NCBI GenBank assembly: GCA_017459315.1
Contig: JAFUDD010000367.1
Coordinates: forward strand, 1-12,786
Reading direction: 5' to 3'
Source: Clostridia bacterium
Lineage (GTDB): Bacteria; Bacillota_A; Clostridia; Christensenellales; CAG-138
Length of the DNA stretch: 12,786 nt
The translations under genes were made by a program, and so were the position numbers. Of this stretch, positions 1,874 through 12,503 are shown piece by piece. The notes under the pieces are model-generated. The model did no database searches and was not told the origin of the DNA. It was given only the letters and a program-made list of their open reading frames with translations. How positions within the stretch are numbered: the stretch's first letter is position 1; each line of letters starts with the position of its first letter.

Positions 1874-2157
1874 TTATAGATTTGAATGATTAGTCAGCAA
1901 AACGAGTATTTCTAACTCGATCGCAGGGATCAAGAGAAGTGACCCCATATCATGTGCATAGGCGCATATGGTATCGTCTCCGCTTTGGTACGTCGCTAAA
2001 AGCGCGGTCTGCGAACTGTTCGCGCCCGGTTTGTAGGTCAGTACCGTGTCGTAGTTGCTGGCGAGGCCGAGACGACGCTGCGTAACTCTGCCGATCGCAT
2101 CGTAGGTGTTCGTTAATACCTTACCACTTTCGAACGTTGCCGTCAAGGGACGGTTGT
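1874..2157 (-). pseudogene. RHS/YD-repeat gene remnant
   Basis: The reading TATFESGKVLTNTYDAIGRV and TQRRLGLASNYDTVLTYKPG onward is nearly identical to residues ~1820-1877 of the large RHS protein in this window. It then drifts (QSGDDTICAYAHDMG against KNGSDTAYAYEYDANG) and ends after a hydrophobic, unrelated tail ending LTNHSNL. No ribosome binding site or proper start precedes it, it has no RHS core motif, and it is far too short to fold. It therefore looks like a leftover of an RHS gene copy that was broken by deletion or recombination. Weaker similarity to the large gene continues a little past 2157 toward 2190. A Met at 2146 could give a 90-aa product, but I do not think it is a real gene. 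Confidence 0.8.
1985..2156 (-). repeat. ~172-bp dispersed direct repeat, copy 1 (RHS remnant)
   Basis: By eye this stretch matches 4817-4988 at a constant offset of 2832 with only a handful of differences (for example near 2075 and 2130-2150), so roughly 97 percent identical. Both copies have the same orientation, so recombination between them would delete the LRR gene and the C-terminal end of the RHS gene including its tip. Confidence 0.9.
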
Positions 2158-2332: not shown

Positions 2333-3325
2333 TCATTGCGGCGGCAACGCCGCAAGATCGGAAAGTGCAATGAGAGAAAAACCGTTCCATTTTCCATCGG
2401 TTGGAGAAAAGTTTTCCAAATACTTGTCCATGCAGTAAACCGTCACATCGGAATTGTCATTGTTCATCAAGCCAAACGACTCTCCTGCAACATACCCATA
2501 CTTTTTAGGTGGCATTCCGCAAAAAACGATCTGCTTCAGAAAAGGCATATTGCTCGTCCGCAAGGAAAGTATTACATCAAGTTCGCCGGCTATCACCATG
2601 CAAGCGATGCCCGAATCAGAAAAAACGTCGTAGCCCAGCACTTTCACCGCCGCGGGAATTGTCACGCTTTCCAACGCGGTACAACCGCTGAAAGAATAAT
2701 CTTCGAGTGACTCCAAACACGCGGGAAGATGCACCATCTTGAGCGCAGTACAATCCGTAAAGTTACACCCCATCTCCGTGATCGAGTCCGGCAAAAAGCA
2801 CGTTTCCAATTCAATGCAGTTTGTAAAGGCAAAATCCTGAATGGTTGTTACGCTCTGCGGAAGAATCAGTTCACGAATCCCACATCCTTCAAATGCACTG
2901 CTTTCAATTCGCGTCAACGAGGGCGACCATACAACGGAAGTCAGGTTGACGCACCCGTAAAATGCTTTGCTTTCCACGCAGACAACGCCATTTCCCATAT
3001 CAACAGTCGTTATACTCATGCAGTTTTCAAAAAGCCCTGCGGGAATCGTCGAGACCTCATCGCCGAAAACGACTTCGGTATAATGCGCACTCGCGTCTGA
3101 ATCGTTCATCCACTTTTGAATGTCTTCCTCCGAGTGAAAAACGGCTCGATGTTGATCCGGCGCAACGCCCTGTCCGGACAAGACCATTCCGTTTTGAGTT
3201 AATTCCAGCTCATATCCAGCGCTATCGATTGGAGAAACTAAAGGAATTATGTCCGTTTCGCAGCCTATCAACAAGAAACAGAAGGATATAATTGCAATAC
3301 GAAGGAAATACCATTGTTGACTCAT
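2333..3325 (-). CDS. BspA-type leucine-rich-repeat lipoprotein
   Basis: A 330-aa exported lipoprotein. The N-terminus MSQQWYFLRIAIISFCFLLIGC has a charged start, a hydrophobic stretch and a lipobox (LIGC, lipidated Cys22), so the mature protein should sit on the outer face of the membrane. Residues ~85-240 hold about six LRR_5 (BspA/Treponema type) repeats, with repeated ...LTSVVWSPSLTRIESSAFEG..., ...LILPQSVTTIQDFAF..., ...VTIPAAVKVLGYDVF... units and a Cys at the end of most repeats. The C-terminus (CGMPP, then TVYCMDKYLENF...WNGF) is the usual cap of this family. These repeats bind proteins or surfaces; no catalytic motif is seen. The start has GGAGG 7-8 nt upstream. It begins 15 nt after the RHS stop, so it is surely in the same transcript. 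Its position directly after a predicted cell-wall-hydrolase tip makes it the best candidate for a surface immunity or partner protein, which is inference. Confidence 0.88.
   Translation of the reverse strand: MSQQWYFLRIAIISFCFLLIGCETDIIPLVSPIDSAGYELELTQNGMVLSGQGVAPDQHRAVFHSEEDIQKWMNDSDASAHYTEVVFGDEVSTIPAGLFENCMSITTVDMGNGVVCVESKAFYGCVNLTSVVWSPSLTRIESSAFEGCGIRELILPQSVTTIQDFAFTNCIELETCFLPDSITEMGCNFTDCTALKMVHLPACLESLEDYSFSGCTALESVTIPAAVKVLGYDVFSDSGIACMVIAGELDVILSLRTSNMPFLKQIVFCGMPPKKYGYVAGESFGLMNNDNSDVTVYCMDKYLENFSPTDGKWNGFSLIALSDLAALPPQ
2336..2355 (-). terminator. Small GC hairpin at the LRR gene stop
   Basis: TTGCGGCG (2336-2343) and CGCCGCAA (2348-2355) form a perfect 8-bp stem with a 4-nt loop directly before the stop codon of the LRR gene. 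A run of five T lies on the minus strand at 2326-2322, about 9 nt beyond the stem, which is further than usual for an intrinsic terminator. It may end or stabilise the transcript. Confidence 0.25.
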
Positions 3326-3340
3326 AGTTCCACCTCCGTT

Positions 3341-3922
3341 CTATTTCAGGTTTTTGGGATACAAGTATCCCACTATCGTAATTGGTTTGTTATTGTATGT
3401 CAATTTGCTTTTTACGGATCGTTCTGAAACCCCAAATATATCTTCTCTATCTGTAGAATCAATCATCATGTCATACCCCAAGTATATAGCGGTATGAACA
3501 ATTTTCCCTTCCTCGGTTTTATAGTATAATAGGGCACCAGCAGGTATCTTTGAAATATCACTTTCCTCTTGTCGTAACCATAGAGTACTATCATAATTTG
3601 CCCACTGATACCTTGCGCCTCTGCGAAATCCCGGATCATACATTAAAACGGACGCTCTTACAAGTTGTGCGCAATCCCTTCTGTCATATGATTCCCCGAT
3701 CATTATTTGTGCTTCATTAATATACGATTCTATTACTGGTGGATACTTTATAGGGGGGTGCGCAGTTTCTACATCAGATGAAATTTCTACCTGAATAATT
3801 GGTGGCGTCTCTTCTATGCAATCTACGGTTTGCACACTATTCGAGCAGCCAGTTGTAGCTGCTAATATAATAGCAATAACAACAATAAGGATTTCAGGAA
3901 TGGAAACGGAAGTGTTTCCAGA
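3341..3922 (-). other. RHS tip: hydrophobic segment, lipobox-like Cys, NlpC/P60-type peptidase domain
   Basis: This is the variable C-terminal end of the RHS protein, residues 2179-2369, not a separate gene. Residues ~2187-2200 (ILIVVIAIILAATT) are a membrane-spanning hydrophobic stretch ending GC (Cys2202), much like a lipoprotein signal. From ~2238 (INEAQIMIGESYDRRDCAQL) the pattern is that of NlpC/P60 peptidases: a helix then DC with catalytic Cys2260, then a Gly-Ala-Leu-Leu-Tyr-Tyr strand and VHTAIYLGYD with catalytic His2319, and an Asp a few residues on as likely third residue. Such enzymes cut peptide bonds in cell-wall peptides. The tip is visibly more A/T-rich than the shell (hand count 24 G/C of 60 at 3661-3720 against 36 of 60 at 4861-4920), as expected of a swapped tip. 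Alternative: a CHAP- or transglutaminase-like papain-fold member. Confidence 0.75.
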
Positions 3923-6900
3923 ATAGTCAGTACGAGAGGTGGGATTATTGAGACAGTACGCAAACGTATTGTGCCCGATCACACCCTGTCCGGTGGAGAG
4001 GAGCACATCCGCGGAGATAAATCTTCCTACCGTCGGATCGTAATACCGGCTTTGGAGGTAGTAGAAGTTGGTCTCCTCATCGTACACATACCCGCGGTAA
4101 CGGAACGGGTTCAGCACGCCAAGCGTAGAGGCGAGGGAGCCCGTGCAGCTCAGCTGCTTGCCCCAGGTGTCGTATGTGTACTCGACGACCGTGTTTTTGC
4201 TGTTGTCAATGAGCTTGATTACATCCCCTTGTCCGTTGCGGATGTAGTAGTAATACGTCCCGTTGAAGTTGACGGCTGCAGCTCTGCCTTGCGCGTCGTA
4301 GGAGAACAGCAGTGTGTTGCCGCCCTGCACAAGACTCATCAGCATCGAACCGTTGTAATAGTAGTTCGTCGTGGCTCCGCTGACAGTCTTCTGCGTCCGC
4401 AGTCCGTTTTCGTCGTACGCATAGGTCGTTGTACCGACGCCGGTAAGCTGCTTGCCTTCCCACGTTAAGGTGCTGCCGAGATAGGATGTCGGATTCCCCA
4501 TCGCATCGTAGGAGATCGACTGATTGTTGTAGCTCGTCAGCTGATCGCCCCATGTGCTGTTACCGTAGACATAGGGAATCGTTTGCGTCGGCGTACCGGG
4601 GTCTGCTGCCGTCGTATAGGCATAGACCTTCTTTTCGGTTATGTTGCCCCAGTCGTCATAGGTGTAGGTGACCGTCTGATTCGTGAAGCCGTTGTTTTCA
4701 CGAATCAGCTCGTTTGCGTCGTTGTAGGTATAGGTAACGCTTACCGTTCCCTGCGTGATCGAGGTAATGTTCCCGTTCGCATCGTACTCGTAGGCGTACG
4801 CCGTATCGCTGCCGTTTTTGTACGTCGCTAAAAGCGCGGTCTGCGAACTGTTCGCGCCCGGTTTGTAGGTCAGTACCGTGTCGTAGTTGCTGGCGAGGCC
4901 GAGACGGCGCTGCGTAACTCTGCCGATCGCATCGTAGGTGTTCGTTAATACCTTACCACTTGCGAATGTTGCCGTCAAGGAACGGTTATCGCCGTCGTAG
5001 GTATAGATCGTGTTCCAGCTCTGGCCTGCCGTTGTGTTGGCGAGCTTGGTCAGGTTGTCATTGACGTCGTATTCGTACTTGTAGGAGGATACGATCGAAC
5101 CGTAGCTGATCGAACTACCGGAGCCGGTAAAGCTCTTTTCGAGCGACGCCATGCAGCGTCCTGCATGATCGTAATCAAAGAACGTGGCGCGGTGGGTCTT
5201 GTAATTGCGCTGCTCATACAGATTCCCTTCGGCGTTATAGATCATTTCATACGCAAGGGAATTGTTCAGCTTAATCTGTGTAACGCGATCCAGCTCGTCA
5301 TAGATATACTGCGCGGTAAACCCGTTGCCGTAGGTAACGGAGGAGAGCCGGCCATAGCTGTCGTACGCATTGGTAGACAGCGCGGTATTGCCGACTTTGG
5401 TTGCAAGGGAACGGTTCCAGGTATCATAGGTCAAGCCGTAGACCGTGGAGCCGCGGGTAATGGCGGTCAGTTTTCCGTAGGCGTCATAGCCGTAGGAGAC
5501 GGTACCCGTATCGGCGCTCTGAAGGGATGCAAGCCTCCGCATATTGGCAGCGTTGCCATAGGTATAGGTGCTGACATTCCCCTTGGGATCGGTAATGGAA
5601 GTATTCTGCCGTGTTGTGCTGTCATAGCCGTACAGAACGCTGTTGCCGCGCGCATCGGTAACGGAGGTAGTTAAGCCGTTTGCAGCGTTGTAAGCTGAAG
5701 TGGAGCGGATATAGGTCGAACTGTTGCCGACCTTGGTTTCCGTTACTTGCCCCTTGGCGTTATAGGTATTGGTCGTAACAACGCCCTGCGGAGAGGTCGC
5801 CGTCAGAAGGTTGTGCTTGCTGTCATAGGTATAGTTGGTCTGATTGCCCTTCGGATCCGTTGATCGGGTTACGTTGTTGTTGCTGTCATAGGTAAAGGAA
5901 TCGTGCTGCCCGATCAGGGAGGTATAACCGGTCAGGTTGCCGGAGGAATCATAGGCGTATGCCTGACTGAATTCTTCACGGTACAGCTGCATACCGTCAA
6001 AGTACGAGGTATTGCAGGCATAGGAGAACTCCGCTTGCAGCGCAACATAGGTATAGGCGGAGGGAGCAACGGCGGAACCGCATACGTACTGCCACTGTGA
6101 AATGTCAGTAAGGAACGGCATTTTCACAATGCTGATTTCGTTATAGTCGCTGTCCAGGAAGCGGACCCGAATATTCAGGTTGCAATAGCTTCTGTCATAT
6201 GGACTTGTGTTTGCGATCCTCTGCGTGGTACAGGCCGGCGAGTTTGTATAGCACCATGCGCCGAAGGTCCATGTATCCCCGGCGCTGCCGTTGACGCGCG
6301 TATTGCAGTACAGATAGTTGTTGTAACTGTTTCCTGCAATTTTGTAGACATGCGTGTCCAGCATCGAAGGATGCGTCGTTCCCAGTGGCGTTGTATCCGA
6401 GCCGACATCCACGATCCCGCTGGGGGAGGTATCACAGTTTCCGTTAAAGTAATACTGATTGGTTCCGTTGTTCCAGTCCGTATTTTCCACCAGATTGTAG
6501 CGTCCGGGAGAAGCGCTTTGCTCGAACTGCACATAATCGACCCAGGCTTGTGCGCTTCCTCCGTTAACCACCTTTACGGTAACGGTTCCCGTATACGTCG
6601 ATCGAAAACTGACGGAAAGCTTCTCCCATCCGGAGCCTTGCGCAACACCGACAGATGCGGGGGCGGATGTGACCGTGCTTCCGCTTGTCGGTACGATCTG
6701 CAAGTACACGCCCGATCCGCCGCACACCGAAGCAGAGAGCGTATACGTTTTTCCACTCGTTACCGAAACCGTTTGAGCGATATTCGCGGACGCATTCAAT
6801 CGCATGGTGCGATGTCCGTTGTATCCGTAATCTCCGTAATACGAAGCGCCCGTACCAAGCGTCCATTCCGCGCTCCTCGCAAAATGGCCGTTTTTCAGAA

Positions 6901-9900
6901 GGTTGGTTGTGGTGCTCTGCAGTTTGGACACGGCGGAAAGCTGTGTCACCGTTCGATCCGCCGTATTGTAAGCGGCATATACGGCGTTGCCTTCATTATC
7001 CCGCAAGCTGACGGCCTGTCCGTTGTTGTCGAACTGGTAAATGGTATCGCGGCCTTGCTTATCGGTCACCGTTGTGCAGTTCCACCCATAGGTAAAGGTA
7101 AGATACTGCCCGGCGGTAGTGTTCGCCTTTTCTTCAACCTTGGTAACACGGTACGGAGCCGTTCCGTTATAGGTGTACGTCAGGTTGTAGGAATCTACGT
7201 TCATTGCGCGGGTCAAGCAGTGATTCGAATAGGTATAGGAACTGCTTTTTCCGTCCGCATAGGAGATCCCGGTCAAATCGGTTGAGGAATACGTATAATT
7301 GACGTTCAACCCGTTCGGAACGGTGATCGAAGAAAGAAGGTTGCTTGTATACGCGAGCGTAATGCTCTGCCCGGCGGACTGCCCGGCAAGCTTCTCTTGT
7401 ATGCTTGTAATCTTCAGATCGGTAATGGTTGTGGAACTGTAGGAGATTAAAATCTGATTTCCGTTGGCGTCCTGAACGGTGGTCAATCTGCCGTTATTGA
7501 CACCGGAATCACAGGCAAAGATCAATTTGTTTCCGCCCTTATCCGAGATCGTAACAGTTGTACCGGAAATCGTCAGCGTGCTGTTGTGATCCAGCTCGTT
7601 CACATATGTGTTGGCGCTGCTGTACTTGTAATATTGCCGTGTTCCGTCGCCGTCAATCAGCTGGTAATAGGTTGCGGTCCCCGTACGATTCGTAAGCTCC
7701 ACTTTTTTCAGAGATTGCGAATAATTCAGCCTCCAACCGTATCCGTAACCGATATTGGTGGTTCTGTCGTTTGTGTTGTATACGTGGGAAAGTGAAACCG
7801 GTAAAACACCGTTGCTAACGGAAGCGTCTGCATGCATCCATGTCAGATTTCCGGAGAACAAGTTCACACTGCCGGTTCCGGCTCTTCCGGCCTGTTGACT
7901 GTAATAGGAGTACCGATCTTCAAGTCCTGTAGAGTTTACATAGATCAGGGAAAAATACGGATGTCCCGAATAGGCGGCATTGTAGTCGGCGGAGCGATAT
8001 TCAATATAGGTACTGCCATCCAGCAGAATGCCGTAGTTTGACTGAATGCCGGCAATCCACTTTTTCGTAAGATCCGTAACGTCAAAATGATTGAAGTTGG
8101 AACCGTAAGCAGCACCGACAAGAGCAACGGCTCTGCTTGTATCTACAGGGTTTCCAAGCGCTTGAAATTTATTCCATGTATATGCCTGCGGCGTGATCCA
8201 GTCCTTAACGATCGGATAGGCCGTTACATAATAGCCGCCGTTTTCCGCCGCATACCGCGACAGATTTATAGTCGCCTCCAATACTACGTCTCCCGCCTGG
8301 AGCTGATTTTTCAAAGACGTAATATCGAAGTACACCAGCCCGTCATACGCTTTGCTGGAGCCTATTTTGATCCTGTCTCTGGTAGAATAGTTCGAAGTGG
8401 GAGAAGACGCCGTGATATACGCATCGATCGCACTTCCGCTGAACAAAGGCTTAATTTCCGGATCGATTACAACAGGATATGCCGCTTTCTGCAGCCACTC
8501 CATATCCGGCTCGACCATATAAATGAATGTGTTTTTATCAGCTGTATCAGGCGTATAATCGGGAAGGGGAATGTCCTCCAGAATATGCGCGATACGATCA
8601 GCTTCAAAAAGCTCCTCATCGGATGGCCATACCGCTTCTTCATCGACGGACGCCTCAGGCTCTTCATCCGTCGATTCCTCTGCGACTGTATCTTCTGTAT
8701 CTTCTTCGCCGGTCGTCATCTCTGCTTCAAAATCAGAATTTTCTTCCGGCGCAGGATTTTCTTCCGGCTCTTCCGGAAGCGCATTGTCGGATTCCCGATC
8801 CTCTTCCTCGACAGATGCATCTTCCGCATTATCATCCGTTCCCTCGGTTGATTCCTCCGGAACCGTATCGGGCGCTTCAAATGGTTCATCCGACGATTCT
8901 TCCGGCAACGTTTCAGAACCGTCATTCTCGGATTCTTCGAGCGAAGGTTCAACAGAATCCTCGGACGAATTTTCTTGGGATTCCTCATCCAAAGTTTCTT
9001 CTGCGGATTCATCCACCTGATTCTCCGCCGAATCTTCGCTGTCTCGTCCGTATGCCCAAAGTATGCGATCATCCTCTTCCGAGACAACACTTTCGATTTC
9101 AACATTCTCACCGAATGCATCGCAGGCAAAGAAACCTATCGTATCCTTGTAGCTGCCGTAGATTCGGTAATAAACCGCGCCTTCTCCATCCGTGAAGGAG
9201 AACAGCGCTGCTGTCATTTCTTCGTCGGTATCTTCGGGCGTATAAAAATCGGGGACAATTTCAAGGGCGTTGTCTGCACTGTCCGGATCAATATTCAATC
9301 GCTCTGCGACAAAGGCCTGCCGCTGCATATCGAGTTCTGCCGCATCTGTAGACTCCGCCTGTTCTCCGTCTCGCTCAGGAAGCTCATCTTCTTCATTATC
9401 CCGAAGCGTAGGAGGAAATCTCCACGCCGAAGTCCGCGCAAACGGAGAAGCCGGGACCATCGAATTTCCGGTTCCGATTATATTTTCTTCTTCTGCAAGA
9501 CCTTCTCCGACGTCTGTGTTTTCTGCTGCTGCGTTTGCTTTAGCACGATCTTCTCTGGCCTTACGCTCCGCTTCGATCCATGCGGCAAACTCGGATGCAG
9601 TCATGAGGCTGACACGAATATCTTCGCTTGTCTCACCGTCTGCATCTTCCATAGAGGGTGATCCAATACGGAAAACCGGCTCTTGTTTGTCGTTTTCAAA
9701 CAAAATGCTGCCGTCTTCTTGTACAACAGGATACACGCCGTCGCACTTCAGTTCTAACTGGTATACTGTTTTTTCTGTCGGTCTCTCTTTAACCGTAATA
9801 TATTCAGATAACGTATAGGACGTTAAAACGTATCGAACGCTTTCACCTGTTTCGGGATTCTCATACAGGATCGCGGAGGACAGCGTTTCGGGGAAGCGCA

Positions 9901-10450
9901 GCTCCATATCCTGTCGTTCATTTCCTGCCAGCTCGGCAAGAACCTCGCTTTCTTGTGAAAGGACCTGCGCTTTGCCGCCTTCCATGCGTAAAAACCGCCA
10001 TGCGACAGACTGATCATTCAACGTATAGCGAACCAGCTGATCGGCGCCAAGGGAATCACCGAATTGAACATCTGCGCCTGCGACCGTGCGATACCGGGTT
10101 TCTTTATTCTTTTCATCTGTAAACGGGATTAACGTATTATCTATATCTCGCCATTTACCGTTTTCCTGCATATGAACAGGATACGGATAGAGAACGGCTT
10201 CCACCGCGCCGTCCGCTCGGAGAAAATGCTTTTCGCTTTCTCCTCGCTTGTTTTCCTCCTCTCCGATCAGTGGACTGTATGTCAACTGCACATCTCGGGA
10301 AAAATCCGTCTTGCTTTCATATTCCTTGATGATTCGACTCGTTTCCAGTTCATCCGCTAATGCCTTTGCGGGCATGGCAACGTAGGATACAAACAGACAG
10401 ATCCCCGCCAGCAGTATCCCTATTACTCTCTTTGCTGCTTTGACTTTCAT
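3341..10450 (-). CDS. Secreted RHS/YD-repeat protein with NlpC/P60-type C-terminal tip
   Basis: A 2369-aa giant. Residues 1-32 are a signal peptide (cleavage after AKALA). An N-terminal beta-rich region is followed by an acidic low-complexity linker (~467-617), a YPVVIDPE motif near 662 and a DNRLRE domain (~675-840). From LEDRYSYYSQQAGRAGTGSV (~845) the RHS shell begins. YD repeats run to ~1175, are interrupted by two jelly-roll, carbohydrate-binding-like modules (~1180-1317 from NLLKNGHF, and ~1318-1497), and continue to ~2100. The RHS core YRGYVYDEETNFYYLQSRYY with DPTVGRFISAD lies near 2120-2150 and ends at NPTSRTDYSG (Asp2175). The last 191 residues are the tip, described separately. In this family the shell encloses the C-terminal toxin. 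AAGGAGA lies 8 nt before the ATG. The start is 90 nt after the upstream lipoprotein gene, with no strong terminator or clear promoter in the gap, so co-transcription is plausible. There is no LPxTG or C-terminal anchor. RHS identity is certain; what it kills or binds is not shown. Confidence 0.96.
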   Translation of the reverse strand: MKVKAAKRVIGILLAGICLFVSYVAMPAKALADELETSRIIKEYESKTDFSRDVQLTYSPLIGEEENKRGESEKHFLRADGAVEAVLYPYPVHMQENGKWRDIDNTLIPFTDEKNKETRYRTVAGADVQFGDSLGADQLVRYTLNDQSVAWRFLRMEGGKAQVLSQESEVLAELAGNERQDMELRFPETLSSAILYENPETGESVRYVLTSYTLSEYITVKERPTEKTVYQLELKCDGVYPVVQEDGSILFENDKQEPVFRIGSPSMEDADGETSEDIRVSLMTASEFAAWIEAERKAREDRAKANAAAENTDVGEGLAEEENIIGTGNSMVPASPFARTSAWRFPPTLRDNEEDELPERDGEQAESTDAAELDMQRQAFVAERLNIDPDSADNALEIVPDFYTPEDTDEEMTAALFSFTDGEGAVYYRIYGSYKDTIGFFACDAFGENVEIESVVSEEDDRILWAYGRDSEDSAENQVDESAEETLDEESQENSSEDSVEPSLEESENDGSETLPEESSDEPFEAPDTVPEESTEGTDDNAEDASVEEEDRESDNALPEEPEENPAPEENSDFEAEMTTGEEDTEDTVAEESTDEEPEASVDEEAVWPSDEELFEADRIAHILEDIPLPDYTPDTADKNTFIYMVEPDMEWLQKAAYPVVIDPEIKPLFSGSAIDAYITASSPTSNYSTRDRIKIGSSKAYDGLVYFDITSLKNQLQAGDVVLEATINLSRYAAENGGYYVTAYPIVKDWITPQAYTWNKFQALGNPVDTSRAVALVGAAYGSNFNHFDVTDLTKKWIAGIQSNYGILLDGSTYIEYRSADYNAAYSGHPYFSLIYVNSTGLEDRYSYYSQQAGRAGTGSVNLFSGNLTWMHADASVSNGVLPVSLSHVYNTNDRTTNIGYGYGWRLNYSQSLKKVELTNRTGTATYYQLIDGDGTRQYYKYSSANTYVNELDHNSTLTISGTTVTISDKGGNKLIFACDSGVNNGRLTTVQDANGNQILISYSSTTITDLKITSIQEKLAGQSAGQSITLAYTSNLLSSITVPNGLNVNYTYSSTDLTGISYADGKSSSYTYSNHCLTRAMNVDSYNLTYTYNGTAPYRVTKVEEKANTTAGQYLTFTYGWNCTTVTDKQGRDTIYQFDNNGQAVSLRDNEGNAVYAAYNTADRTVTQLSAVSKLQSTTTNLLKNGHFARSAEWTLGTGASYYGDYGYNGHRTMRLNASANIAQTVSVTSGKTYTLSASVCGGSGVYLQIVPTSGSTVTSAPASVGVAQGSGWEKLSVSFRSTYTGTVTVKVVNGGSAQAWVDYVQFEQSASPGRYNLVENTDWNNGTNQYYFNGNCDTSPSGIVDVGSDTTPLGTTHPSMLDTHVYKIAGNSYNNYLYCNTRVNGSAGDTWTFGAWCYTNSPACTTQRIANTSPYDRSYCNLNIRVRFLDSDYNEISIVKMPFLTDISQWQYVCGSAVAPSAYTYVALQAEFSYACNTSYFDGMQLYREEFSQAYAYDSSGNLTGYTSLIGQHDSFTYDSNNNVTRSTDPKGNQTNYTYDSKHNLLTATSPQGVVTTNTYNAKGQVTETKVGNSSTYIRSTSAYNAANGLTTSVTDARGNSVLYGYDSTTRQNTSITDPKGNVSTYTYGNAANMRRLASLQSADTGTVSYGYDAYGKLTAITRGSTVYGLTYDTWNRSLATKVGNTALSTNAYDSYGRLSSVTYGNGFTAQYIYDELDRVTQIKLNNSLAYEMIYNAEGNLYEQRNYKTHRATFFDYDHAGRCMASLEKSFTGSGSSISYGSIVSSYKYEYDVNDNLTKLANTTAGQSWNTIYTYDGDNRSLTATFASGKVLTNTYDAIGRVTQRRLGLASNYDTVLTYKPGANSSQTALLATYKNGSDTAYAYEYDANGNITSITQGTVSVTYTYNDANELIRENNGFTNQTVTYTYDDWGNITEKKVYAYTTAADPGTPTQTIPYVYGNSTWGDQLTSYNNQSISYDAMGNPTSYLGSTLTWEGKQLTGVGTTTYAYDENGLRTQKTVSGATTNYYYNGSMLMSLVQGGNTLLFSYDAQGRAAAVNFNGTYYYYIRNGQGDVIKLIDNSKNTVVEYTYDTWGKQLSCTGSLASTLGVLNPFRYRGYVYDEETNFYYLQSRYYDPTVGRFISADVLLSTGQGVIGHNTFAYCLNNPTSRTDYSGNTSVSIPEILIVVIAIILAATTGCSNSVQTVDCIEETPPIIQVEISSDVETAHPPIKYPPVIESYINEAQIMIGESYDRRDCAQLVRASVLMYDPGFRRGARYQWANYDSTLWLRQEESDISKIPAGALLYYKTEEGKIVHTAIYLGYDMMIDSTDREDIFGVSERSVKSKLTYNNKPITIVGYLYPKNLK
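4817..4988 (-). repeat. ~172-bp dispersed direct repeat, copy 2 (within the RHS gene)
   Basis: The partner of the copy at 1985-2156, same orientation, encoding residues ~1820-1877 of the RHS protein (GKVLTNTYDAIGRVTQRRLG part). This copy lies in an intact reading frame, so it is the parent or sister of the decayed copy. Confidence 0.9.
8600..9050 (-). other. Acidic low-complexity linker in the RHS protein
   Basis: Residues ~467-617 of the RHS protein consist almost only of Glu, Asp, Ser, Thr, Pro and Ala, with repeated EES/DEE/SDE units and no aromatic residues until AVWPSDEELF near its end. It separates the N-terminal beta region (ending near ILWAYG) from the YPVVIDP/DNRLRE part. It is predicted to be disordered and strongly negative. 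The DNA shows matching short purine-rich repeats (GAA/GAG/TCC units), so replication slippage may change its length between strains. Confidence 0.8.
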
Positions 10451-10540: not shown

Positions 10541-12043
10541 TCAATTTGTTAAACTGTTGTCGATCAGCGAGCCATCAATTGCACTGAAGGAAAACAATAG
10601 GGGCGAAAGACTTTGATCATTATCATCTGTACTTATCGGTGTATTTTTGTGTACTGTACCATAAAAATTCCAAGCCGGAATTAACTGCCCTATATCGTCG
10701 ATATCCGAAAAAGTAATGCGATTTAAGCAAAAGCTGATACGATTAATCTGTATAGCCGAATCGTTTAGCTCGGAAAAACAAATGTTTTCGATTGTTCTCA
10801 TCGCTTCTTGCATGAAAGGATCAAAATCGATTATCGTAACGTCATTCGTAATGGGCCTAACCATTTCCATGGGAGAATACCAGCTTATATAGTAAATCCC
10901 TTTTTCATCGACACATATACGAATACTTTCGTACTGCCATCGGTTAACTTCATTATTCGCAAGTAATATTCTATGCCCTGCATCATAATAGGTTCCGGGT
11001 ATTTTACGGTAGCCTCTTGAGCATAATAACAAGTAAGAATACTCTTTCGGATTATCTTTGTTCGTTAAGGCAATTACTGAATTAACAGCTATGTCATCAA
11101 TGCCTAATTTGGCCATAAACCATTCCGTATATGACACGGCATGCGTCGGCAAAAAAACTGCTTTCTCCAATCCGATATTTTGCAGTTCGATAGGATTATC
11201 CGGATCCGATATCAAAATGCGAGTATCTTGTTCTCCGCCAATTAAGCGGCATCGCCAATCCTGAAAGCAGAAATGCGCTTGGCGCCAAGGAATGGTTGTT
11301 CCTACAACATCATCTTTTTCATCTATATTAGGGTTTATTACCGAAAAGAAACGGGTCGGGGTCTGATTCTCTTCTGATCGTGCATCTACGCCAATGTAGG
11401 ATAACAATGGAATTCCCCAGTGATTTGTTTCCTGAATTATCGATGCCATAGTTCCGTCGCAGGAAATGTTTGTGTCAAAGAGAGGGGCGTTAGGAAATCT
11501 ATCGGCTAATGAACTGATCTCTCCTTTCAGATATTCTATATAGCCTGCTTCATCAGGGTCATTCTCTATCTGCTTCAGTTCGTCATAGTAACTTGATATT
11601 CGCTTGGCAATCTGTATTTTTGTTAATTCATATCTGTCCCTTTGCCACATTTGTGTTTCACTGCAAAGTTCATCAAACAATTGATATACCAGCGTTTGAG
11701 AAAAGCTACCTTTCTTTACTTCAACAATGGGTATCTCTGTGATGTCAGGCACATCAACAATAGCATTTACGGCAATCGAAACATCATCTCCAGTCCTGAT
11801 TTCACATTGATAATCATTTGGAATATGGTATATGCTGCGAACATACAGCGGCATACTGGATCTATTATCGGAACAATCCGAACTGCTTGGTATGAAGAGT
11901 TTTATCTGGGGAAGTGATTCGCTTATCCCGACATCCGCGCCACTGTTTTGGCTGTGTGTTTCTTTCTGAGATGTCAATGAAGGTGTGCAGGATATGTGTG
12001 TCAAGACAATGAAACACCAAAGAACCAGTAAGAGACGCTTCAT
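10541..12043 (-). CDS. Lipoprotein, resembles DUF6034 family
   Basis: A 500-aa predicted lipoprotein. I start it at 12043 (MKRLLLVLWCFIVLTHISC) because this gives a proper signal peptide ending in Cys19 and an AAGAGGG ribosome binding site 7-8 nt upstream; the longer frame from 12088 would put a charged 15-residue extension before the signal and overlap the upstream gene. A Ser/Thr-rich linker follows. The mature part has VNAIVDVPDITEIPIVEVKK (near residue 90-115), a charged helical stretch (YYDELKQIENDPDEAGYIEY, ~150-190), and a C-terminal PAWNFYG...SPLLFSFSAIDGSLID block. From memory this order matches the DUF6034 lipoproteins of gut Clostridia; I could not align it. The lipobox is weak at -3 (His). 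No catalytic motif is seen. It lies between a small secreted protein (16 nt upstream) and the RHS gene (90 nt downstream). Function unknown. Confidence 0.8.
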   Translation of the reverse strand: MKRLLLVLWCFIVLTHISCTPSLTSQKETHSQNSGADVGISESLPQIKLFIPSSSDCSDNRSSMPLYVRSIYHIPNDYQCEIRTGDDVSIAVNAIVDVPDITEIPIVEVKKGSFSQTLVYQLFDELCSETQMWQRDRYELTKIQIAKRISSYYDELKQIENDPDEAGYIEYLKGEISSLADRFPNAPLFDTNISCDGTMASIIQETNHWGIPLLSYIGVDARSEENQTPTRFFSVINPNIDEKDDVVGTTIPWRQAHFCFQDWRCRLIGGEQDTRILISDPDNPIELQNIGLEKAVFLPTHAVSYTEWFMAKLGIDDIAVNSVIALTNKDNPKEYSYLLLCSRGYRKIPGTYYDAGHRILLANNEVNRWQYESIRICVDEKGIYYISWYSPMEMVRPITNDVTIIDFDPFMQEAMRTIENICFSELNDSAIQINRISFCLNRITFSDIDDIGQLIPAWNFYGTVHKNTPISTDDNDQSLSPLLFSFSAIDGSLIDNSLTN

Positions 12044-12059
12044 CTGTCTACCCTCTTTC

Positions 12060-12503
12060 TTATCCATGGCAGCAATAATATGTTCCATACCAATAGCCGA
12101 AAATTGAAGCAGACGCAGATTCTGTATTATTGATTATTTTTAAATGTATCTCATGATAAGCGGTTTTATATAAAGGTATCATTTTTTCACACGGGCTGCA
12201 CCATTCAACGGGCGGACCTAAGGCCACGGCGTTCTCATTCACAGGTTGTATGTATATTGACAGTACCTCATTTGAATTCATTTCAAGGACGCTTACATAA
12301 ATATAGTCATCCCACAGATATTTTGCACCTGAAGTGGCAAACGGTTTGATGATAGCCTTTTCCGTATAGATTTCATTATCGCAAATACCGGCCGAGAAGG
12401 TGGCTGTTGAAACATTTTCCTCAATGTGGTTAGAATGGGATACGAATAGCAAGGAACTGCAGAGAAACCATAGAAACAGTTTTATAAATATGCTTCGACA
12501 CAT
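12060..12503 (-). CDS. Small secreted protein of unknown function
   Basis: A 147-aa protein with an N-terminal signal peptide (MCRSIFIKLFLWFLCSSLLF, cleavage probably near SHS-NH, residue 24). The mature part, about 120 aa, alternates short hydrophobic strands with polar turns, like a small beta-sandwich. It contains WCSPC (residues 101-105) and a tyrosine-rich end with paired Cys (GYWYGTYYCCHG), so disulfides are possible. WCSPC equals the thioredoxin-like active-site motif, but its late position and the lack of a cis-Pro region argue against that fold. GGAG lies 11 nt before the ATG, a longer spacing than usual. Its TAA is 16 nt before the lipoprotein start, so it is first in the presumed operon. 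I do not recognise its family. A stalk or surface partner of the lipoprotein is possible but unproven. Confidence 0.7.
   Translation of the reverse strand: MCRSIFIKLFLWFLCSSLLFVSHSNHIEENVSTATFSAGICDNEIYTEKAIIKPFATSGAKYLWDDYIYVSVLEMNSNEVLSIYIQPVNENAVALGPPVEWCSPCEKMIPLYKTAYHEIHLKIINNTESASASIFGYWYGTYYCCHG

Follow-up and report, generated by a model that had tools for sequence, protein, structure and literature searches.

The RHS protein described here is encoded on a contig from a Clostridia bacterium (JAFUDD010000367.1, assembly GCA_017459315.1), all 12,786 nucleotides of which form the window. Judged from its sequence, it is a giant, apparently secreted toxin that carries a swapped-in enzyme of the wall-cutting type, and the lipoprotein encoded by the next gene is a good candidate for protection against it. 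The protein is probably a polymorphic RHS toxin of the Gram-positive type, in which an NlpC/P60 cysteine endopeptidase cassette would attack the walls of neighbours while the lipoprotein would protect the producer. An earlier note, made from the letters of this DNA alone, had placed an NlpC/P60-type peptidase at the end of the RHS protein; that observation is confirmed, and its interpretation is supported. Specifically, computation supports the family, fold, and catalytic residues of the tip and its exchange after a constant body. The gene and the parts of its body are as follows:

3341..10450, minus strand: gene of the RHS protein (2369 residues; RHS_repeat, E 1.1e-40; DUF6531, E 1.4e-7; YD repeats; Rhs_assc_core)
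10355..10450, minus strand: N-terminal Sec-type signal peptide, residues 1-32, MKVKAAKRVIGILLAGICLFVSYVAMPAKALA, read from the sequence by eye
7955..8425, minus strand: DNRLRE domain, residues 676-832 (NCBIfam NF033679, E 1.8e-17)
3917..4174, minus strand: RHS repeat-associated core, residues 2093-2178 (TIGR03696, E 1.2e-18)

The stretch from the end of the core at residue 2178 to the stop codon occupies 3341-3922 and encodes the tip, whose enzymatic part comprises:

3344..3745, minus strand: NlpC/P60 catalytic domain, residues 2236-2369, from the Pfam match and predicted fold
3671..3673, minus strand: Cys2260, predicted nucleophile, which opens a helix of the model and falls in one column across all 28 aligned domains
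3494..3496, minus strand: His2319, predicted catalytic base, located on a modelled beta strand and likewise in one column in 28 of 28 domains
3458..3460, minus strand: Asp2331, predicted third catalytic residue, aligned with the His of MIH in phage domains

Pfam NLPC_P60 (PF00877) matches the tip alone with 30.1 bits (E 5.1e-7) and the whole protein with 26.8 bits (E 5.4e-6, residues 2252-2336), both above the curated cut-off of 23 bits, and the identity proposed for the tip thus passed a profile search. The two catalytic residues named in the earlier note lie where it put them, with RDCAQ beginning at residue 2258 and VHTAIYLG at 2318. The predicted tip model adopts a papain-like NlpC/P60 fold, with CwlO and LytE among its structural matches, and identity to the listed solved structures is 8-26%. 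The expected closeness of Cys2260 and His2319 follows from this fold and the alignment, and a model that separates them was not seen. The column of Asp2331, a residue the earlier note did not mention, holds Asp in the window, in P0001-P0006, and in P0082. Sequence profiles of the tip find dipeptidyl-peptidase VI and NlpC/P60 wall enzymes as their best solved matches, weakly significant for the profile of four sequences. A five-sequence profile gave 27 matches with E values as high as 5, including several chance matches (CRISPR proteins), and it is biased toward NlpC/P60 matches because it includes P0007, an ordinary NlpC/P60 protein.

The catalytic residues occur in the order Cys2260, His2319, Asp2331, which is the non-permuted arrangement with a third polar residue of canonical P60-like domains. 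In Tox-Act1, H43 precedes C151, and circular permutation of the catalytic core defines its group (PMC12994826). The permuted, lipid-acting NlpC/P60 group, which includes Tox-Act1 and TseH, is ruled out for the window tip, since Cys2260 precedes His2319.

The tip is exchanged after a conserved core, which together with the RHS/YD repeats and RHS-associated core places the protein among polymorphic RHS toxins. Up to residue 2000, the relative P0008 is 95-100% identical to the window protein in every block of 100 residues. Between residues 1950 and 2169, 17-20 residues are identical in each block of 20; the next two blocks fall to 7/20 and 10/20, and past residue 2200 identity is 16-19%. No Pfam family was found in the P0008 tip at E<=1. 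The reverse relationship is seen in P0001, which is 69% identical over residues 2236-2369, 17% in the linker, and 49% in the N-terminal part. Among the 120 core homologues listed (of 1252 passing E<=1e-20), 118 have no BLAST match to the window tip at E<=1e-3, PF00877 is precomputed in P0001 only, and P0082 carries a divergent version of the tip (26% identity; PF00877 at 20.6 bits, below the cut-off). Two of these relatives, P0020 and P0124, are named as Clostridia metagenome-assembled genomes (MAGs). The earlier note had described an A/T-rich tip that looks swapped in and had regarded one C-terminus shared by all homologues as the contrary outcome. Its segment is 38.8% G+C compared with 51.3% for the body (3982-10450), the near-identical body of P0008 ends in an unrelated tip, and what follows the shared core differs between homologues.

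Beyond the listed homologues, genome scans with the tip and with the tip alignment found no relative, and scans of viral contigs with the tip alignment, P0007, the LRR (leucine-rich repeat) protein, the core alignment, and a core DNA pattern gave no match. A tblastn search of plasmids and phages with the catalytic domain gave no match at E<=0.01, and a query of core plus tip matches RHS cores only, at <60% identity. One further protein, P0006, is a HEAT-repeat protein ending in the last ~50 residues of the same NlpC/P60 tip, a fused relic.

Between core and catalytic domain lie two elements, the second of which was also absent from the earlier note:

3914..3943, minus strand: PTSRTDYSGN at the boundary between core and tip (residues 2170-2179), a degenerate form of PxxxxDPxGL at which identity with P0008 collapses
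3845..3892, minus strand: hydrophobic lipobox-like linker, residues about 2187-2202, ILIVVIAIILAATTGC, ending TTGC, from the sequence

The PxxxxDPxGL motif and its aspartyl autocleavage are described in PMC8636562, and Tse5 is also treated in PMC10684867. In the window, P, D2175, and G are retained, while DP is replaced by DY and L by N; in the deposited structures of Tse5 and TccC2, the chain stops at the boundary column. The linker is treated here as membrane-directed. A similar hydrophobic stretch follows the core in P0008 and none does in P0001. Stretches of this sort with, by eye, a better lipobox occur in P0108 and P0115 and in an orphan fragment of locus L063. Under a strict rule, lipobox-like linkers are not significantly enriched: 3 of the 100 distinct tips qualify, the mean for shuffles is 0.96, and 33 of 500 shuffles reach 3. 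A looser rule accepts 9 of 119 tips, and P0108 passes that rule only. The tips of P0008, P0108, P0115, and L063 (2662-3546) carry an NCYGYA-like motif, follow such a linker, and belong to no assigned family, save for a below-cut-off DUF7689 match in that of L063.

The gene behind the tip, another feature beyond the earlier note, encodes a candidate immunity protein:

2333..3325, minus strand: LRR_5 lipoprotein of 330 residues (PF13306, E 2.3e-42), with a hydrophobic N-terminus and, by eye, an FLLIGC lipobox

It lies on the same strand, 15 bp after the RHS stop codon, and its G+C is 46.9% compared with 38.8% for the tip. PADLOC has no match for either the RHS or the LRR protein. Loci with related cores were compared in a phage collection, where four of seven records were read, all from human faeces. 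A gene was scored as having a hydrophobic start when a 15-mer near its beginning had a Kyte-Doolittle mean of >=1.9. All six genes that follow tips in these four faecal loci have a signal- or membrane-type start, or seven of seven with the window. It was these loci that first suggested the idea; one contig holds three of the seven genes, and the starts of two were hand-chosen. Among Bacilli plasmid loci with distant cores, 3 of 9 such genes have a hydrophobic start, and by eye these same three resemble membrane proteins with several spans (10 of 25 listed loci taken, from 1124 records; L068 was omitted as no gene is listed directly after its RHS). Exported genes behind related RHS tips are thus a suggestive, post hoc observation.

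The tips in the faecal loci are diverse. That of L061 is NlpC/P60-like by hhalign (probability 92.9%, compared with 0.1-0.2% for four other RHS open reading frames), although Pfam itself makes no NlpC/P60 call there. L062 (2341-3426) has an RHS tip with PG_binding_1 (E 1.7e-10), and the start of the next gene resembles a signal peptide. L063 (1216-4858) holds three core-tip pieces in a row, and the gene behind each of them encodes a hydrophobic segment close to its beginning. One piece is JAB/DUF4329-like (both below cut-off), another combines a lipobox-like linker with a DUF7689-like match that stays below cut-off and has its core broken in frame, and the third is unassigned.

From these features we infer how export, cleavage, substrate, and immunity could fit together. 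The RHS protein would leave the producer by Sec, its shell enclosing the NlpC/P60 tip, and cleavage near Gly2178-Asn2179 would release the tip. The freed enzyme, perhaps held at the membrane by the hydrophobic linker, would cut peptidoglycan peptide stems of neighbouring cells, while the LRR lipoprotein would sit outside the producer membrane and guard the producer.

Several points weigh against this course of events, in which activity, cleavage, secretion, and protection are all predicted. The boundary motif is degenerate, with DYSGN in place of DPxGL. Export by Sec could also stop at the hydrophobic segment that follows the signal, in which case the tip would stay within the producing cell. 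The lipoprotein is paired with the tip as a candidate, by adjacency and lipobox, and BspA-type LRR lipoproteins are common. As a single query, the tip matches no solved structure at E<=1, and the profile of four RHS tip sequences gives three weak matches, the best at E 0.034. With those four sequences the fold prediction was poor (predicted local distance difference test score, pLDDT, 42.6). Twenty-two of the 28 aligned domains are phage NlpC/P60 domains selected on a His motif together with the rule [DN]C[STA], and this choice guided both the confident fold and the invariance of the residues.

The earlier note left open whether the enzyme acts on neighbouring cells or on the producer's own wall. 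The wall-type enzyme family stands, and nothing found favours the producer's wall over that of neighbours. CwlO and LytE, which recur among the structural matches, are NlpC/P60 wall hydrolases of the producing cell; nevertheless, a self-directed autolysin or wall-remodelling enzyme is improbable, as housekeeping gives no explanation for a tip swapped for an unrelated one on an otherwise 98% identical body, and a remnant of the tip is fused to another protein in P0006. Somewhat better, though still unlikely, is the alternative that the tip acts as a cysteine peptidase or amidase toxin on a target other than peptidoglycan, such as proteins or lipids of the target cell. NlpC/P60 relatives can act on lipids, and the low identity to solved structures leaves room for such a substrate. 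However, the lipid-acting members are circularly permuted and the window tip is not, the best solved profile matches (partly weak) include wall enzymes, and the candidate immunity protein is extracytoplasmic.

There is a considerable chance, somewhat short of even, that the LRR lipoprotein is unconnected to the tip and that immunity lies elsewhere or is unneeded. The G+C contents of gene and tip differ, and LRR_5 lipoproteins are frequent surface proteins, whereas the short same-strand gap directly behind the tip and the exported-type starts of all six faecal-locus genes favour a connection. A wider and rather doubtful proposal is that the wall-attacking toxin belongs to a Clostridia-type, envelope-acting RHS branch, in which tips that cut or bind the wall are paired with exported immunity proteins and, in some cases, preceded by a signal-peptide-like hydrophobic segment with a lipobox-like Cys immediately after the core. 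In its boldest form, this segment would allow the freed tip to lodge in the outer face of the target membrane, or to reach it by export, and to cut the wall from there.

The remainder of the window contains one further RHS element:

1971..2155, minus strand: displaced DNA copy of the RHS core, 185 bp, 95.7% identical to 4803-4987

This copy is followed by a 75-residue open reading frame and a DUF2971 gene (538-1464, E 5.3e-9; also PADLOC candidate defence family PDC-S31, E 8.9e-8), an arrangement that resembles what is left of an earlier cassette; neither gene has a hydrophobic start by the rule above. Between the LRR gene and the copy, at about 2205-2245, an inverted repeat, GCGGCGCCTATG / CATAGGCGCCGC, was seen by eye, with no T-run behind it. 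The C-terminal part of a sortase (2-235; PF04203, E 1.8e-10) lies on the strand opposite to the RHS gene, and directly upstream of that gene is a DUF6034 protein with a hydrophobic N-terminus (10541-12088, E 1.8e-42). The window contains no Rfam family at the gathering threshold and no tRNA.

Tox-NLPC/P60 is a domain of RHS toxins that is papain-like, has conserved C, H, and D, and is predicted to degrade walls (Zhang et al. 2012, PMC3482391). The window tip, an NlpC/P60 domain with C, H, and D in an RHS toxin, corresponds to it by description. The tip type claimed by the earlier note stands, but not its rarity: such tips were predicted in 2012, and the tip is less unusual than that note suggested. 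The kind was already predicted from other bacteria, and thus no new principle is involved. Tox-NLPC/P60 is listed there for Bacteroidetes and delta-proteobacteria, with export by type VI secretion systems (T6SS), Photorhabdus virulence cassettes (PVC), or TcdB/TcaC and no immunity protein (PMC3482391); the window differs in its Sec-type signal, Clostridia-MAG core relatives, and candidate lipoprotein partner. No report of an NlpC/P60 RHS tip in Clostridia was found in searches of openly accessible literature, which is weak evidence of absence.

Canonical NlpC/P60 enzymes (CwlO, LytE, RipA, and Clostridioides difficile autolysins) share the fold, Cys, His, and a third polar residue 12 positions past the His; structure entry titles for RipA name mutants at C383, H432, and E444. 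The third residue is Asp in the window, His in phage domains, and Glu444 in RipA, and the Cys-to-His spacing is 59 residues, compared with 47-56 in 60 phage domains. Unlike the canonical domains, that of the window is an exchangeable RHS tip.

Immunity proteins of polymorphic toxins are cytoplasmic in all but a few cases, two consisting of two transmembrane helices, and for surface-acting L,D-peptidase toxins a subset is secreted or transmembrane (PMC3482391). Imm65, paired with Tox-JAB-1, is the sole lipoprotein immunity protein in that collection. The window lipoprotein resembles Imm65 in lipobox anchoring and Imm-LRR in its leucine-rich repeats; its pairing with NlpC/P60 is not encountered in the parts of PMC3482391 covered here. 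If the pairing is true, Tox-NLPC/P60, which has no immunity protein in the 2012 table, gains a testable candidate. P0008 and the window also provide a clear-cut natural exchange in which to ask which properties allow a tip to be carried.

WapA-type toxins of Streptococcus suis combine Sec export, sortase involvement, variable C-terminal toxins, downstream immunity genes, and displaced old pairs and truncated copies, and a sortase adjoins wapA loci in other Gram-positives (PMC12704120). The window protein is similar in its Sec-type RHS body, variable tips, candidate downstream immunity, and displaced truncated copy, and the displaced core copy and sortase end appear in keeping with a WapA-type locus. 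The difference lies in the tip, as "peptidase", "hydrolase", and "NlpC" are absent from the main text of PMC12704120. WapA is a tRNase acting within its target (PMC5566331); if the wall-attacking toxin proposed here is real, the same RHS shell would also serve envelope attack, with a wall-cutting tip and an extracytoplasmic immunity candidate.
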